Position numbers and translations under genes: made by a program. Below are positions 23,658-40,736 of a stretch of DNA of 40,736 nucleotides, piece by piece; the stretch's first letter is position 1; the number at the start of each line of letters is the position of its first letter. Where the stretch lies: the NCBI GenBank assembly GCA_021773395.1, contig JAJFKB010000016.1:1-40736 (forward strand), given 5' to 3'. Source of the DNA: Gammaproteobacteria bacterium. GTDB taxonomy: Bacteria > Pseudomonadota > Gammaproteobacteria > Pseudomonadales > IMCC2047. The notes beneath the pieces were generated by a model. It was not told where the DNA came from. It ran no database searches and was given only the letters and a program-made list of their open reading frames with translations.

Positions 23658-24281
23658 TTAGATATTTGACTGAATAAAAGAGACCGGGTATGTATTAATA
23701 TAGGAACGCCGCTGTTTCATTTGAGCAAACCAGCGCGCTATTTGAGGGAAATCCTGATAAGCCATTGCACCATAAGTCTCAGCGATCCCAAAACGCGGCA
23801 ACAGTGCACATTCGACAGCGGAGAATTGTTCGGCAAAATAGGGTTTATCGCCAAGCCATTCTTCCAGTTGCTCCAGACATTTGCGCCATGCCTGTTCACT
23901 CGTGTTGATTAGCGCCCAATCCCACTCTGCTTCGGGCTTAGAGCGTTTCTCAAATACCTGATCCCTAAGCGCGGGGCCGATTACGGTGTCGGAATAGCTC
24001 ACCAGTAATCGTTGTTGGGAGCGCTGTGCGGGTGATCCGGGGTAGAGTTTCCCCGGCCCATAAACATCTTCCAAATATTCAAGAATGGTGTTGGATTCCC
24101 AGATCACCGTTTTTCCATCGATAAAAACAGGCACCGATCCTTTGGGATTGTGCTTGATCACTTCCGGGTGCTTTTCACCCAGTAAGGTATCCACCAGCTG
24201 ATATTCAATCTGCAATTCAGCCAAAGCTATACGTACCTTCCAGCAGAAGGGGCAGTCGCTGCGGTGATAGAGAGTGATCAT
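23658..24281 (-). CDS. Glutathione S-transferase family protein
   Basis: A 207-residue GST with an N-terminal thioredoxin fold. It starts MITLYHRSDCPFCWKVRIAL, with a glutaredoxin-like CPFC (10-13). GSVPVFIDGKTVIWESNTILEYLED is the cis-Pro and gamma-glutamyl binding site, followed by the all-helical domain. Two cysteines at the active site suggest a beta/omega- or stringent-starvation-like GST with thiol-transferase activity. It lies 13 bases downstream of a DsbA/HCCA-isomerase-like gene, so the two are an operon in glutathione-linked metabolism. Confidence 0.85.
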   Translation of the reverse strand: MITLYHRSDCPFCWKVRIALAELQIEYQLVDTLLGEKHPEVIKHNPKGSVPVFIDGKTVIWESNTILEYLEDVYGPGKLYPGSPAQRSQQRLLVSYSDTVIGPALRDQVFEKRSKPEAEWDWALINTSEQAWRKCLEQLEEWLGDKPYFAEQFSAVECALLPRFGIAETYGAMAYQDFPQIARWFAQMKQRRSYINTYPVSFIQSNI

Positions 24282-24294
24282 AAACGATCCAATA

Positions 24295-24888
24295 TTAAAG
24301 GCGCGAAAGTCTAAGTTCGCGCAAATGATCTAGCACATATTCAATACGGTCACTGCCCCAGAAGATGTCTTCGCCGATAACAAAGGTGGGCACGCCGATG
24401 ACGCCAAGCGTTTGCGCTTCCTCCCAGTTTTTCTCCAACTGGGCGAGATTATCCGGAGACTCTATGGCCTGCATCAATTCGGCACGATCCAGCCCTGCTT
24501 TATCGCCAACGTTGAGAATCACTTCGGTATCACCGATATCCAAACCGTACGACCATTCAGCGCGCATCATCTCTAAGAGGTAGGGGCGTAATACGCCTTT
24601 CTGTTCCGCTAGCAGCGACCCGGCCCCTGCTTTGGTGGGTTCAGTGGTCATCGGCGGCGGATTCATCGGGATGCCCATTTTTTTAGTGATACGCGCGACA
24701 TCCTGCCGCGTCAGCGGCACTTTGACTTTGGCGCGATCAGGCGATGATCTACCGGTCCAGCCACCCAATGGACGCCAGATCAGATTGGTATGGAATTCAT
24801 CAAACACCTGAAATAGAGTTTTCGATGCAATGTAGCAATAAGGGCTACGGAAATTGAAATAGAGTTTTACGTCGATTGGGGTTGTCAT
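24295..24888 (-). CDS. DsbA-family / 2-hydroxychromene-2-carboxylate isomerase-like protein
   Basis: A 197-residue thioredoxin-fold protein with helical insertion, like GST-kappa and HCCA isomerases. The N-terminal YFNFRSPYCYIAS has Ser-Pro in place of the CxxC of redox DsbA. The C-terminal GVIGVPTFVIGEDIFWGSDRIEYV is the signature glutathione-binding end. HCCA isomerases act in naphthalene and related aromatic catabolism using glutathione. Its closeness to the phenol operon is suggestive but not proof. Its ribosome site (GAGGG, 24899-24895) is formed by the edge of the adjacent repeat element. Confidence 0.8.
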   Translation of the reverse strand: MTTPIDVKLYFNFRSPYCYIASKTLFQVFDEFHTNLIWRPLGGWTGRSSPDRAKVKVPLTRQDVARITKKMGIPMNPPPMTTEPTKAGAGSLLAEQKGVLRPYLLEMMRAEWSYGLDIGDTEVILNVGDKAGLDRAELMQAIESPDNLAQLEKNWEEAQTLGVIGVPTFVIGEDIFWGSDRIEYVLDHLRELRLSRL

Positions 24889-31109: not shown

Positions 31110-31547
31110 TTATACGCTCTCTCTATCAGCACCAATTTTATTTAATGCGGCCACCGCACACTCCATATCCTGCGCTTCACTGGCACCAGAAACACCAATA
31201 CCACCGACTCGCTCGCCGTCCACCACAATGGGAAAGCCACCACCGAACATCACCATCCGATCCCGTTGTAAAAGCCCTTCTTTTACTGCATTCGACATGC
31301 CCTGAGACACTTCAGTCCAACGGTGCGTTGGCAAACCAAAACTGGTTGCGGTATAGGCCTTGTCCGTCGCAATGTCACTGCAATGCAAGGGTGCCAGCGG
31401 ATCGCACAAAAATGCAATTGTGCGACCGCCGCGATCCACCACTGCAACACTGATATGAACTGACAGGGCTTGCGCCTGCTGCATTGCCGTTGCACAAGCC
31501 TGCTGTGCAGAGGCCCAGCTGACCGAACTTTGTTTGACGATATTCAT
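31110..31547 (-). CDS. GlcG/HbpS-family heme-binding protein
   Basis: A 145-residue protein of the GlcG/DUF336 (haem-degrading) family. The core 'HISVAVVDRGGRTIAFLCDPLAP', 'DKAYTATSFG' and 'FGGGFPIVVDGERVGGIGVSGA' is diagnostic. Such genes recur next to ring-cleavage and propanediol or glycolate genes, but their job is not firmly known. Guesses include heme or cofactor binding, or protection and reactivation of the Fe(II) dioxygenase. It sits 12 bases after dmpB and abuts dmpC, so it is an integral operon member. It is not among the fifteen genes of the Pseudomonas CF600 dmp operon. Confidence 0.85.
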   Translation of the reverse strand: MNIVKQSSVSWASAQQACATAMQQAQALSVHISVAVVDRGGRTIAFLCDPLAPLHCSDIATDKAYTATSFGLPTHRWTEVSQGMSNAVKEGLLQRDRMVMFGGGFPIVVDGERVGGIGVSGASEAQDMECAVAALNKIGADRESV

Positions 31548-37318: not shown

Positions 37319-37570
37319 TCAGTCCTGTTCCCCATATCTCCATTTCCTCATGTCGCGATCAACAGCTGCTGCCTGCTCCTCAGTCATATGCTCTGCCTTA
37401 TTCTTTTTACAGAACTCCTCAAAAGCAGCGGTTGGCAAAATAAGTTCGATATAAATACTCGGGTCACCGATCGCAAAATCAAATTCGACAAAACCTCTCA
37501 CTTTGTTTCGGACTCTCACAAAGCGCTTCTGCTGATCGAAGTTCCTTTTTTTGACTGCCTTTAATTTCAT
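37319..37570 (-). CDS. dmpK: Phenol hydroxylase assembly protein P0
   Basis: An 83-residue protein of the DmpK/TomA0 family, needed for assembly of active phenol hydroxylase (iron loading) but not for turnover. The segment QQKRFVRVRNKVRGFVEFDF, then 'AIGDPSIYIELILP..AFEEFC', is characteristic. ATG 37570 is chosen over a GTG at 37588 because the distance to the RFVRV motif then matches family members. Neither has a good ribosome site. It is the first gene of the operon, about 99 bases from the predicted transcription start. Confidence 0.88.
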   Translation of the reverse strand: MKLKAVKKRNFDQQKRFVRVRNKVRGFVEFDFAIGDPSIYIELILPTAAFEEFCKKNKAEHMTEEQAAAVDRDMRKWRYGEQD

Positions 37571-37680
37571 ATTTATTGATACGCTCACTGATTAGGCCGA
37601 ATACATTGACGCCTATAGCGCAATATTTTTGCCACCCAAGGACAGCTATCTGTCTTCGCGCTGATGATTGAATTACCAAG

Positions 37681-37695
37681 GCAAAGACTATGCCA
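37681..37695 (-). promoter_or_regulatory. Sigma-54 promoter of the phenol operon
   Basis: On the minus strand TGGCATAGTCTTTGC matches the -24/-12 consensus TGGCAC-N5-TTGC at 9 of 10 defined positions, with the invariant GG and GC correctly spaced. The predicted start is near 37669, giving a leader of about 99 bases before dmpK ATG 37570. Phenol operons of the dmp type are known to be transcribed by sigma-54 RNA polymerase under an aromatic-responsive activator. Confidence 0.88.
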
Positions 37696-37765: not shown

Positions 37766-37822
37766 GAATTTAATGAAATCATGAATAATTTCACAAAGGA
37801 TATTCATGATTTCATTAAATTC
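37766..37822. promoter_or_regulatory. Upstream activating sequence (22-bp perfect inverted repeat)
   Basis: Arms 37766-37787 and 37801-37822 are exact reverse complements with a 13-base spacer. Each arm contains TTTAATGAAATCATGAAT. The centre (37794) lies about 125 bases upstream of the predicted dmpK transcription start, where XylR/DmpR-type activators bind. The adjacent activator gene makes DmpR the obvious ligand. The symmetry is longer and more perfect than usual for such sites. Confidence 0.75.
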
Positions 37823-37972: not shown

Positions 37973-37990
37973 TTTAATGAAATGATTAAT
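37973..37990 (+). promoter_or_regulatory. Third copy of the dmp repeat motif near the dmpR start
   Basis: TTTAATGAAATGATTAAT shares TTTAATGAAAT exactly with the arms of the main repeat (37766-37822) and is itself partly palindromic (TTAAT...ATTAA). It lies 37 bases before the dmpR start codon. DmpR binding here could adjust its own expression. Confidence 0.45.
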
Positions 37991-38026: not shown

Positions 38027-39739
38027 GTGCGCATGAGTTCAGCAGAAACCAAATCAAATTTCCAGTTTCCGGATATCAACGATCTTTCCCGGTTAATCCG
38101 CTTTCAGACCGATCAGGGAAAAATTTGGCTGGGCGAGCAGCGTAGCATTCTGATGACATTACCCGCACTGGCCGGATTTCGACGCGAAGTTCTGCAATCG
38201 TTGGGGCTAGAGCGCACCAAAGGATTCTTTATGCGGCTCGGTTATCAGAACGGTCTCAAGGATGGTGAGATGGCCCGACATTTAAGACCCAACGCCAATA
38301 CGGTAGATAGCTTCCTGGCAGGGCCTCAGTTGCATATGCTGCGAGGCATGGTTCAGGTTGAGCCTCTAAAAATAGAAATCGATCCAGAGACGGGCCATTT
38401 TTATATGGATCACCTATGGTTGAATTCTTTTGAAGTTGATATCTGCCTATCTGAGTTCGGCATTCTTGAAGATCCCGTCTGCTGGATATTAATTGGTTAT
38501 GCCTGCGGGTATTCCTCCTCTGCACTGGAGCAGGAGATCATCTTTAGAGAAATTGAGTGCCGTGGCTGCGGTGATGAACAGTGCCGGGCTGTGGGCAAAC
38601 CAGCGCATGAGTGGGAAGATCACGAGGAGTTCAAGCGCTATTTTGTTGCAGACCCTCTGATCGAAGAACTCTATGAGCTTCAGTCCCAAATATCCGGTTT
38701 ACGCAAAAATATCAGCGGCAGCGACATGCTAAGTAATGCCGTAGGACATTCCAAGGCATTCCAGCAGGTCTGCGATATGGCCAACAAAGCGTCTCACTCC
38801 AATGTATCAGTGCTGCTATATGGTGAAACTGGGGTAGGCAAGGAAGTCATGGCGCAGGGCTTGCACATGCATAGTAATCGCGCCAACGAGCCATTTATAG
38901 CCATCAATTGCGCTGCGATACCTCCTGATCTGATAGAAGCTGAACTGTTTGGCGTTGAAAAAGGCGCTTTCACCGGCGCTACGCAATCACGCATGGGACG
39001 ATTCGAGCGTGCCCATAAAGGTACGGTTTTTCTCGATGAGGTCGTCGAACTAACCCCTAGAGCACAAGCCTCTTTGTTGCGCGTGCTGCAGGAAGGCGAA
39101 CTAGAGCGCGTTGGAGATAACCACACTAGGTCGGTTGATGTAAGGGTTATTGCCGCAACCAATGAAGATCTTGAAGGAGCTGTCAAGTCAGGTCGTTTTC
39201 GCGCTGACCTTTTTTATCGACTTAATGTATTCCCAGTAACCATTCCTCCATTGCGAGACAGGCGGGATGATATACCTCTTTTGGCAGAGCACTTTATTGA
39301 CAAGTACCATGCTCGCTACCACAAAAGAACCCTGGGATTTTCCAACAAAGCAATGGACGCGCTCATGTCTTACGATTGGCCGGGCAATATCCGTGAATTG
39401 GGCAATATTATCGAGCGTGGCGTCATTCTAACTGACACCAACGACACCATCGGTGTCGACGAGCTGATCATCGGCATTGATGAAAGCTCAAACAACGTCA
39501 ATGCGCTTTCCAGCTCGGGTTCGTTAATCGCAGAAAGTGACACGCTGGCCACACAAAACCTGCCTAAGGAAAGCGATGACTGGGTTGAGGAGATCTTTAG
39601 TGCGGGCATCGGCCTTGAGCAGTTAGAGAACATGCTGATTGATAAAGCCATGTCAAAAACAGGCGGCAATGTTTCCAAAGCAGCCCGCTTGCTCAACCTG
39701 ACACGTCCCGCGCTTGCTTACCGACTTACCAAAAAGTAA
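38027..39739 (+). CDS. dmpR: Sigma-54-dependent phenol-responsive activator, DmpR/MopR/XylR type
   Basis: A 570-residue NtrC-family regulator: effector-sensing XylR_N/V4R domain (about 1-215), linker, AAA+ ATPase (about 235-470) and Fis-type HTH at the end (GGNVSKAARLLNLTRPALAY). Walker A is GETGVGK (266-272), and GAFTGA (313-318) contacts sigma-54. Sensor residues fall at a constant offset of -3 from MopR: zinc ligands C152, E175, C178, C186 and phenol-pocket residues H103 and W131. Phenol or simple alkylphenols are thus the likely inducers. The GTG start at 38027 has AGGAG six bases upstream; ATG 38033 is an alternative. Transcribed divergently from dmpK. Confidence 0.95.
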   Translation: MRMSSAETKSNFQFPDINDLSRLIRFQTDQGKIWLGEQRSILMTLPALAGFRREVLQSLGLERTKGFFMRLGYQNGLKDGEMARHLRPNANTVDSFLAGPQLHMLRGMVQVEPLKIEIDPETGHFYMDHLWLNSFEVDICLSEFGILEDPVCWILIGYACGYSSSALEQEIIFREIECRGCGDEQCRAVGKPAHEWEDHEEFKRYFVADPLIEELYELQSQISGLRKNISGSDMLSNAVGHSKAFQQVCDMANKASHSNVSVLLYGETGVGKEVMAQGLHMHSNRANEPFIAINCAAIPPDLIEAELFGVEKGAFTGATQSRMGRFERAHKGTVFLDEVVELTPRAQASLLRVLQEGELERVGDNHTRSVDVRVIAATNEDLEGAVKSGRFRADLFYRLNVFPVTIPPLRDRRDDIPLLAEHFIDKYHARYHKRTLGFSNKAMDALMSYDWPGNIRELGNIIERGVILTDTNDTIGVDELIIGIDESSNNVNALSSSGSLIAESDTLATQNLPKESDDWVEEIFSAGIGLEQLENMLIDKAMSKTGGNVSKAARLLNLTRPALAYRLTKK

Positions 39740-39898
39740 TGTTCTACCTCCCCAATCTCAAACTTCCGCATATACCGAGCGGTTCCCCACATTATATTTT
39801 TCGCTAACCATGGGCATTTTCAACAGCTGGCTCAGGTAAAAAGTTAACGAAAAGATCAATTCCTTTGCCCGCGTTTTACTATATCGTTAAATCTAAAC

Positions 39899-39921
39899 AT
39901 TGATTAATAAATTTCATCAAT
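39899..39921 (+). promoter_or_regulatory. Putative DmpR site upstream of the second sigma-54 promoter
   Basis: ATTGAT (39899-39904) and ATCAAT (39916-39921) form an inverted repeat. The reverse strand reads ATGAAATTTATTAAT, which resembles ATGAAATGATTAAT (near dmpR) and ATGAAATCATGAAT (dmpK repeat) apart from one inserted base and point changes. The centre is about 127 bases before the predicted start at 40037, the same geometry as at dmpK. Confidence 0.5.
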
Positions 39922-40010
39922 AAAACACCCACCAATAAAACATACACCAAATATATTTTCCTTTATATTACAAATCGTTAACTTGTTTATTTTGCGTCAC
40001 AAAAAATTAA

Positions 40011-40025
40011 TGGCATAGTCATTGC
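40011..40025 (+). promoter_or_regulatory. Second sigma-54 promoter, near-identical to that of dmpK
   Basis: TGGCATAGTCATTGC matches the sigma-54 consensus at 9 of 10 defined positions and the dmpK promoter at 14 of 15, including the non-conserved spacer. The predicted start is near 40037. It reads toward the lipoprotein gene at 40437, which would have a leader of about 400 bases. Confidence 0.75.
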
Positions 40026-40088
40026 TGCATAGATAGCAGTAAAAGCCAATGCGCACCCAGGGCGGCGATTTATACTCCTGGAGAAAAA

Positions 40089-40118
40089 ATGAGCGTAAGA
40101 AACATTAAAAATAGTTAA
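40089..40118 (+). CDS. Possible leader peptide of nine residues
   Basis: In the predicted long leader, GGAG six bases before an ATG opens a short frame coding MSVRNIKNS and stopping at TAA. It starts about 52 bases after the predicted transcription start. It may be a regulatory upstream frame or chance; there is no run of codons typical of attenuation peptides. Confidence 0.3.
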   Translation: MSVRNIKNS

Positions 40119-40436
40119 AAACTTGGGTTCCCTTACAGACATTGCTTTATACGCTCTCGCACATGCAGCATTTTGCGCGCCACATAGAATGTGGCAGGAA
40201 ATAATAATTGTCGATAGAGTCATCCGGGCTTTATAACCCTGTGAGTGCTGTCAGCATAAAAATAAAGTAGTACCCCTAATTAAGTTATAAATATCAGCCA
40301 CGATCAGGTTTCAGTCCTTAGATTGCAACCAAAACAATAGAACGACGGATTTGGCAGGCAGCTGGCTAATATTTAATTCGCTGCCCATAACAATAATTTT
40401 TAGTGACCATTAAAGAAATTTAACATAGGTATTCTA

Positions 40437-40736
40437 ATGTATAAGGGTAATATTTTTGGCCCCGGCTTTTCTGCTATTACACTTGTTTTCAGCCTGGCTC
40501 TGCTCACGGGCTGTGAAGCGGCGCTGGATTTAAGCGGTGTAGCGGATGAGTCGTCGAAGACGCGGCTGCGCACGGATCAGTATCAAAAAATGGCGCGCAG
40601 TGGTGATGCCCTGGTGCTGGTAGGCTCTTCGGGTGTGGTGCTGCGCAGTGTCGATGATGCGCAGAGCTGGCAACGTCAGGAAATTGAAGGTCGCCCTAAC
40701 TTTATTGGTCTCAGTGCCTGCCCGGCGGGCGAGCTG
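40437..40736 (+). CDS. Lipoprotein with Ycf48/BNR-like repeats (5' part)
   Basis: The first 100 residues of a protein cut by the right edge. A lipoprotein signal peptide ends in LLTGC (Cys26). The following sequence, 'TRLRTDQYQKMARSGDALVLVGSSGVVLRSVDDAQSWQRQ', is the first blade of a BNR/Asp-box or Ycf48-type beta-propeller (G..G.vl.S.D.g.sW...). Genes of this kind often accompany RND transporters and DUF1302/DUF1329 proteins in hydrocarbon and sterol degradation loci; whether that is true here lies outside the window. The second sigma-54 promoter points at it. A weaker candidate (TGGCAGGCAGCTGGC, 40352-40366) is nearer. Confidence 0.75.
   Translation, partial: MYKGNIFGPGFSAITLVFSLALLTGCEAALDLSGVADESSKTRLRTDQYQKMARSGDALVLVGSSGVVLRSVDDAQSWQRQEIEGRPNFIGLSACPAGEL

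Follow-up and report, generated by a model that had tools for sequence, protein, structure and literature searches.

A second sigma-54 promoter beyond dmpR that probably reads into an exporter unit of the phenol regulon

A -24/-12 sequence at 40011-40025, on the far side of dmpR from the phenol hydroxylase operon, is probably a sigma-54 promoter that DmpR switches on in response to phenols and that drives an AmeABCD-like exporter against toxic aromatics. When phenols are present, the adjacent DmpR would activate this promoter, which would then transcribe the genes for a YCF48-like lipoprotein, an MMPL/RND pump, a DUF1302 outer-membrane protein and a DUF1329 periplasmic protein, and the resulting four-part exporter would remove toxic aromatics or shield the cell during their degradation. 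In many relatives the exporter unit makes up the last part of the dmp operon. On a P. veronii plasmid it lies, and here it would lie, across dmpR, and the displaced unit would stay in the regulon through the second sigma-54 promoter. If this is correct, the phenol regulon includes the export of toxic aromatics in more lineages than predicted so far, and membership of the regulon can outlast the departure of the exporter from the dmp operon, by means of a second sigma-54 promoter in front of it. The locus would also offer a direct and cheap test of the function of the DUF1302/DUF1329/YCF48 unit in aromatic degraders, and would help in the selection of strains and parts for cleaning up phenol.

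The dmpR locus and its second promoter

The window, i.e., the whole stretch of DNA analysed, is the entire contig C8 (40,736 bases) of a genome of 3.8 Mb in 26 contigs (G000). Its right edge cuts the YCF48-like lipoprotein gene to which an earlier interpretation, here called the sequence-only reading, had pointed. The features of the locus are as follows.

37319-37588, minus strand: ORF of 89 aa at the dmpK position, first gene of the phenol hydroxylase operon, named by place only
37681-37695, minus strand: sigma-54 -24/-12 promoter of the phenol hydroxylase operon, TGGCATAGTCTTTGC, from a sequence scan
38027-39739, plus strand: DmpR-type activator of 570 aa, from Pfam domains, sequence matches and a tree
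40011-40025, plus strand: second sigma-54 -24/-12 promoter, TGGCATAGTCATTGC, from scan, score and shuffles, with a counterpart in P. veronii
40037-40436, plus strand: leader of ~400 nt from the predicted transcript start to the lipoprotein gene, unusually long
40437-40736, plus strand: 5' part of a YCF48-like (AmeC-like) lipoprotein gene, cut by the contig end, from matches to paralogues

The ORF at 37319-37588 was called dmpK because P. veronii has an annotated dmpK at the corresponding place, and the other dmp names were taken from matches to the annotated P. veronii dmp genes. An HbpS-like gene (heme-degrading family) lies between dmpB and dmpC at 31110-31547. Beyond dmpG, on the same strand at 23658-24888, a DsbA-family gene, presumably of the 2-hydroxychromene-2-carboxylate isomerase type, is followed by a glutathione S-transferase gene; these two are perhaps part of the dmp operon.

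The activator adjoining the phenol hydroxylase operon has XylR_N, V4R, sigma-54 AAA+ and Fis-type HTH domains (Pfam) and shows 60% identity to plasmid regulators of Marinobacter and P. veronii, the latter being the dmpR product of the T1 plasmid described below. Its best NCBIfam model is MobR, with 704 bits, which is under the cut-off of 999 for that model. In the regulator tree, it groups with the P. veronii and M. salarius regulators and pWW0 XylR (93/95), and the HTH stretch LTRPALAYRL, which we take for the recognition helix, is identical in the window DmpR, P. veronii and M. salarius. Judging from the neighbouring operon, its effector would be phenol.

Sigma-54 promoters carry GG and GC 10 nt apart in a TGGCAY...TTGC context, and the -24/-12 sequence at 40011-40025 agrees with this consensus (TGGCATAGTCATTGCT) and is real. 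As the sequence-only reading had claimed, TGGCATAGTCATTGC equals the dmpK promoter TGGCATAGTCTTTGC at 14 of 15 bases. Exact matches to TGGCATAGNCNTTGC occur only twice in the whole 3.8 Mb genome, namely at these two promoters, and the reversed control pattern has none genome-wide. With matrix weights set by hand, the site has the top sigma-54 score of the window (16.3 of 18.3). In 20,000 dinucleotide shuffles of 39740-40436, a region that was itself chosen through the earlier finding, a plus-strand site equally strong arose 12 times, and a site like the dmpK promoter at at least 12 of 15 bases arose 54 times. The predicted transcript start is at about 40037. Weight had also been laid on the spacer shared by the two promoters (TCA vs. 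TCT), which is striking inside this genome but is not general, given that the lipoprotein and dmpK promoters are equal at 13 of 15 bases in P. veronii and at 10 of 15 in another genome, G305.

A looser sigma-54 pattern with one mismatch allowed had three matches in the window against 2.05 expected, which is not significant, so that the case for the promoter stands on the full match and its place. This low excess would fit a chance match without promoter function. However, we consider such a match very improbable, as only the above 12 of 20,000 shuffles equalled the site and P. veronii has a sigma-54 site at the same place.

Activator sites, leader and paralogues

Candidate activator sites of the XylR/DmpR type and the inverted repeat of the sequence-only reading are listed below.

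37770-37785, plus strand: XylR/DmpR-type site, one of the dmpK pair, centred at about -108, TTAATGAAATCATGAA, from pattern score
37803-37818, minus strand: second site of the dmpK pair, centred at about -141, from pattern score
37974-37989, plus strand: third site of this kind, immediately before dmpR, TTAATGAAATGATTAA, from pattern similarity
39844-39859, plus strand: first site of the best candidate pair at the second promoter, centred at about -185, TTAACGAAAAGATCAA, weak by pattern score
39875-39890, plus strand: second of the candidate pair, centred at about -154 and 31 bp apart from the first, TTTACTATATCGTTAA, 10 of 16 by pattern score
39899-39921, plus strand: inverted repeat, unsupported as an activator site by shuffles and site scores

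Upstream of dmpK, two copies of TTAATGAAATCATGAA lie in opposite orientation with their centres 33 bp apart. Sites were scored on the consensus TTGATCAWWTGATCAA (full pattern) and on its core, with 200 shuffles each; the dmpK pair scored 12 + 12 of 12 core positions, which was reached by none of the core shuffles and by 3 of the full-pattern shuffles. This pair agrees with a published rule, by which XylR/DmpR sites are paired palindromes of 16-20 nt, with centres 29-42 nt apart, located 100-200 nt upstream (PMC6449761). The third site, at 37974-37989, may reflect control by DmpR of its own gene.

In the region of the second promoter, the best single site scores 12 of 16, a score that 12 of 200 shuffles reach. 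The candidate pair at 39844-39859 and 39875-39890 was reached by 7 (full) and 4 (core) of 200 shuffles, a marginal result for a pair chosen after the fact from two versions of the pattern, and the two are suggestive at most as activator sites of this promoter. The sequence-only reading had instead assigned the activator to the inverted repeat at 39899-39921. The repeat does exist and is centred at -127, but it is at chance level (one observed, mean 1.03, reached in 100 of 200 shuffles), and the 16-mers overlapping it score 10 to 11 of 16 on the site pattern. We rejected it as an activator site, since equal repeats are expected once per such region. The position of -125 with which it had been compared at dmpK turned out to be the midpoint of two sites (about -141 and -108) and not one site.

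The same test was applied to control pairs, for which the numbers of 200 full and 200 core shuffles reaching the pair were 0 and 0 at both the dmpK and the lipoprotein promoter of P. veronii, 0 and 15 at M. salarius dmpK, 0 and 42 at the G305 lipoprotein gene, 1 and 0 at G250 dmpK, 1 and 2 at G348 dmpK, and 65 and 75 at G305 dmpK, indicating that the pair test works for most, not all, promoters of this kind. The absence of a strong activator site at the second promoter counts against control of the exporter by DmpR.

The long leader (~400 nt, vs. ~40 nt in P. veronii) also counts against it. At 40080-40118, 43 nt past the predicted transcript start, the leader contains a GGAG, an ATG with eight further codons, and a stop (an ORF of nine residues); this would be a leader peptide or else the remains of an earlier gene start. 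The ORF sits where the gene start would be expected, and the start may therefore have moved by recombination. A crude scan of 39700-40736 found no terminator-like site and no plus-strand sigma-70-like promoter (one such site was found on the minus strand), results that argue against both a block and a replacement promoter; the lack of a terminator-like site between promoter and gene counts in favour of the exporter being driven from 40011-40025. The same stretch had no Rfam match to a known RNA up to E = 1, and no copy of the leader was found elsewhere in the genome, just matches of 17-32 bases at E 0.2-0.7.

The earlier designation of the gene product as a Ycf48/BNR-like lipoprotein is partly right: the 100-aa fragment itself matches no Pfam family, but a near-identical full-length paralogue on contig C20 matches PSII_BNR/YCF48. 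In all, three relatives of the fragment occur in the same genome, on contigs C20, C21 and C18. The copies at the window end, at C20:2190-3170 and at C21:103409-103717 are 99% identical, with two differences per pair over 220 comparable bases after a boundary that we take to be the lipobox; before this boundary, the leaders and signal peptides of the three copies are unrelated. Such a break next to a near-identical body points to recombination in the vicinity, and the promoter might be a remnant. Recombination between the near-identical copies might have replaced the gene start and left the -24/-12 sequence as a relic; transcription of the gene would then begin at a promoter within the leader or continue through from dmpR. 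The 400-nt leader with its RBS-like GGAG, ATG and short ORF, as well as the contrast between 2 of 220 differing body bases and unrelated leaders, would fit this; on the other hand, the crude scan gave no plus-strand sigma-70-like promoter from which the gene could now be read, and the -24/-12 sequence is intact. We consider a relic unlikely.

The rest of the unit is off the window contig, which again counts against a DmpR-driven exporter, and its make-up was approached through the paralogues. Behind the C20 lipoprotein copy, an MMPL/RND pump gene continues up to the contig end; the HAE3 model gave 113 bits, under the cut-off of 352, for this pump cut by the contig end. The C21 copy and the window end at the same base of the lipoprotein gene, as is typical of an assembler at a repeat. 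The diverged fourth copy, on C18, belongs to a full unit of YCF48-like, MMPL, DUF1302 and DUF1329 genes. Another contig, the short C10, starts within a DUF1329 gene sharing 76% identity with its P. veronii counterpart; this contig probably represents the right-hand end of one of the copies that were collapsed. From paralogues and relatives, the genes past 40736 are predicted to be those of an MMPL/RND pump, a DUF1302 protein and a DUF1329 protein.

Like the window's contig, C20 and C21 carry their own XylR_N-type regulator(s), and XylR_N matches number five in this genome. The second promoter might accordingly be a real sigma-54 promoter driven mainly by another enhancer-binding protein, e.g., one of the four other XylR_N-type regulators. 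The number of such regulators, the location of paralogous units on contigs with other XylR_N regulators and the weak activator site at the second promoter are consistent with this possibility. However, the gene directly upstream is dmpR, the two promoters of the locus are equal at 14 of 15 bases, and P. veronii shows the same gene order, including a regulator of the DmpR type and good sites, and we regard another main regulator as improbable. It is possible, although we would not call it probable, that one exporter body has been wired into several aromatic regulons of one genome by swapping the promoter and signal peptide only, each substrate switching on the same pump via its own sigma-54 activator and recombination keeping the bodies alike.

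The C21 exporter copy lies beyond an XylR_N-type regulator (L008 1360-10718), with what we take to be an IS5-type transposase look-alike between the two and UbiD/UbiX-like genes nearby.

Gene order on plasmids and in other genomes

The arrangement that we ascribe to DmpR control has its closest counterpart on the P. veronii T1 plasmid (NZ_CP142043.1), which originates from an aniline-contaminated site. On T1, the dmp operon runs leftward and dmpR rightward, followed by a -24/-12 site (TGGCACAGGCGTTGCT) and the YCF48, MMPL, DUF1302 and DUF1329 genes, so that T1 and the window share a sigma-54 promoter between dmpR and the YCF48 gene. Conservation of the promoter in relatives with dmpR and the lipoprotein, on which the sequence-only reading had staked itself, was examined in part; the promoter is kept in T1 and the claim was not refuted. 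The T1 lipoprotein promoter has an activator pair at -174/-145 close to the consensus (reached by 0 of 200 shuffles), whereas the sites in the window are weak, and its leader is ~40 nt long if the lipoprotein start is read, as we do, as the ATG at L110:13748 (the annotated start is later). A further difference is that the T1 lipoprotein and pump reading frames are interrupted in the record. From neighbourhood and conservation, DmpR control of the second promoter in the window appears likely.

Plasmid records with a lipoprotein match numbered 29; the two examined (H1 and H2) showed this layout in H1 only, and the other matches were remote. Among DmpR-type plasmid loci, 5 of 52 records were examined and one of the five had the layout; no exporter unit was found beside the regulator in M. 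salarius, A. radioresistens, Azoarcus KH32C or pWW0, for which annotation is incomplete. The Aromatoleum aromaticum EbN1 plasmid has the four exporter families in a CoA-type catabolic cluster.

A search for the lipoprotein family in 369 genomes of the class gave matches at E ≤ 1e-10 in 29 and below 1e-50 in eight (our own and seven others), the 21 genomes with a best E above 1e-50 being left out of the counts. Searches were also made in the families of G353 (146 genomes, 8 matches at 1e-30) and G094 (36 genomes, 6 matches). In the resulting 19 other genomes, which are not independent (eight from one family and six from another), gene order from tblastn showed the exporter unit immediately behind dmpH, in the same orientation, in 13 cases and behind dmpB in one. 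The unit is thus within phenol/meta-cleavage operons in 14 of 19, and in four of seven in the class-wide draw alone. For these relatives, the statement that known dmp operons lack the lipoprotein gene is incorrect, and the 14 embedded copies led us to reject the view of the unit as alien to dmp operons. As for the broader proposal that DmpR switches on an envelope or transport operon past the window edge, the comparison supports it through the T1 layout and the 14 of 19 units that follow phenol/meta-cleavage genes in the same direction, but the site chosen does not.

The remaining genomes vary. In G348, dmpR is ~7.7 kb from the unit, in G305 dmpR and the phenol hydroxylase genes are on a different contig, and in G515 a contig edge cuts the neighbourhood of the unit; no dmp genes were found on the unit contigs of G011 and G521 (15 and 12 kb) or by the second copy of G353, on its contig C10. 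XylR_N was present in 18 of the 369 genomes and in six of the eight with a strong lipoprotein match (own included). Note that G094 has the unit after dmpB and yet no XylR_N match, indicating that linkage to dmp genes does not always mean control by DmpR.

We also scanned upstream of the lipoprotein genes for sigma-54 sites scoring at least 15, which occur at 0.0068 per 500 nt of one strand in the comparison DNA. Such a site was present within 500 nt in 3 of 11 free-standing copies (window included) and in 0 of 12 embedded copies, with G123 counted as embedded and G432 and G411 outside the scan; G305 has the site TGGCACAATAATTGCG 90 nt before its lipoprotein ORF. That no site scoring at least 15 was found within 500 nt of the other 8 of 11 free-standing copies, and that four of five plasmid loci are without the unit, counts against DmpR control of the exporter.

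Sigma-54-like sequences, TGGCATGCCAGCTGCA / TGGCACGCCTGCTGCA, were seen at or near the DUF1302 start in four genomes of one genus (L103 13712, L143 3447, L145 5741 and L146 19389). These may be promoters or just conserved sequence.

In the pump tree, where our C20 copy stands in for the window and P. veronii is represented by a C-terminal piece only, these two are sisters (100/99) inside a seven-member clade in which the remaining five rows are all dmpH-linked (100/100). The dmp-linked copies of G123, G537, G538 and G094 fall in the other half, among unlinked copies. This tree was built without EbN1, G539 and G348; an earlier tree with those rows also joined C20 and P. veronii (94/98) and had a very long EbN1 branch. 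Weighing these findings, we conclude that the second promoter is real and most likely belongs to the phenol regulon, and that it leads into an exporter unit of a known type.

Comparison with known systems

In Pseudomonas sp. CF600, dmpR is divergent from dmpK, whose operon has the sigma-54 promoter Po with paired activator sites. Compared with that system, the window has an additional sigma-54 promoter, located across dmpR and directed into an exporter unit.

The link between a DmpR-type regulator and the exporter, which had been taken as new, has already been predicted in print for Betaproteobacteria. Suvorova and Gelfand (2019) place COG4447, COG1033, PF07044 and DUF1302 members in predicted AphS, AphR and AphT regulons and propose a role for them in coping with toxic aromatics; the AphR prediction rests on sites in 32 Betaproteobacteria, some of which have AphS or AphT, and adjacent AphR-controlled operons are given for Burkholderia sp. 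383 (PMC6449761). The regulons described and the present locus share an XylR/DmpR-type regulator and, as predicted for the window, the same four families, whereas here the unit is directly beyond dmpR, with its own -24/-12 site and weak activator sites.

AmeABCD of Castellaniella defragrans consists of DUF1302, DUF1329, COG4447 and HAE3-type RND pump proteins; deletion of ameABCD lowered monoterpene tolerance and raised Nile Red accumulation, and the complex acts as an exporter (PMC6394551). The unit indicated past the window edge by paralogues and relatives would have this make-up (YCF48-like, MMPL/RND, DUF1302, DUF1329). On the other hand, the ame genes are in a monoterpene island in the order A-B-C-D, whereas here the substrate is presumed to be aromatic and the four parts are not together on the window contig. 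The sequence-only reading had left the choice among uptake, efflux and membrane protection; export or protection fits best, since this relative acts as an exporter (PMC6394551), and by analogy export or shielding during growth on phenol is the likeliest function of the unit.

Related gene sets appear in three further reports: a cluster with DUF1329, YCF48-related and MMPL proteins was strongly expressed in a benzene-degrading consortium (PMC13101534), DUF1302 and DUF1329 genes lie within the phenol hydroxylase cluster of Zoogloea (PMC7012976), and in P. veronii SM-20 an RND exporter and a BNR protein are listed next to the phenol hydroxylase regulator (PMC11052242). Our literature search, thin on subscription journals, found no description of a further sigma-54 promoter located between dmpR and a unit of this kind. 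The pairing of a DmpR-type regulator with this exporter is, therefore, not new in kind, and the window provides a well-supported example that was to be expected from published work. Its contribution lies in the detached position of the unit, which has a promoter to itself, and in the three copies that are near-identical over 220 bases behind unrelated leaders.
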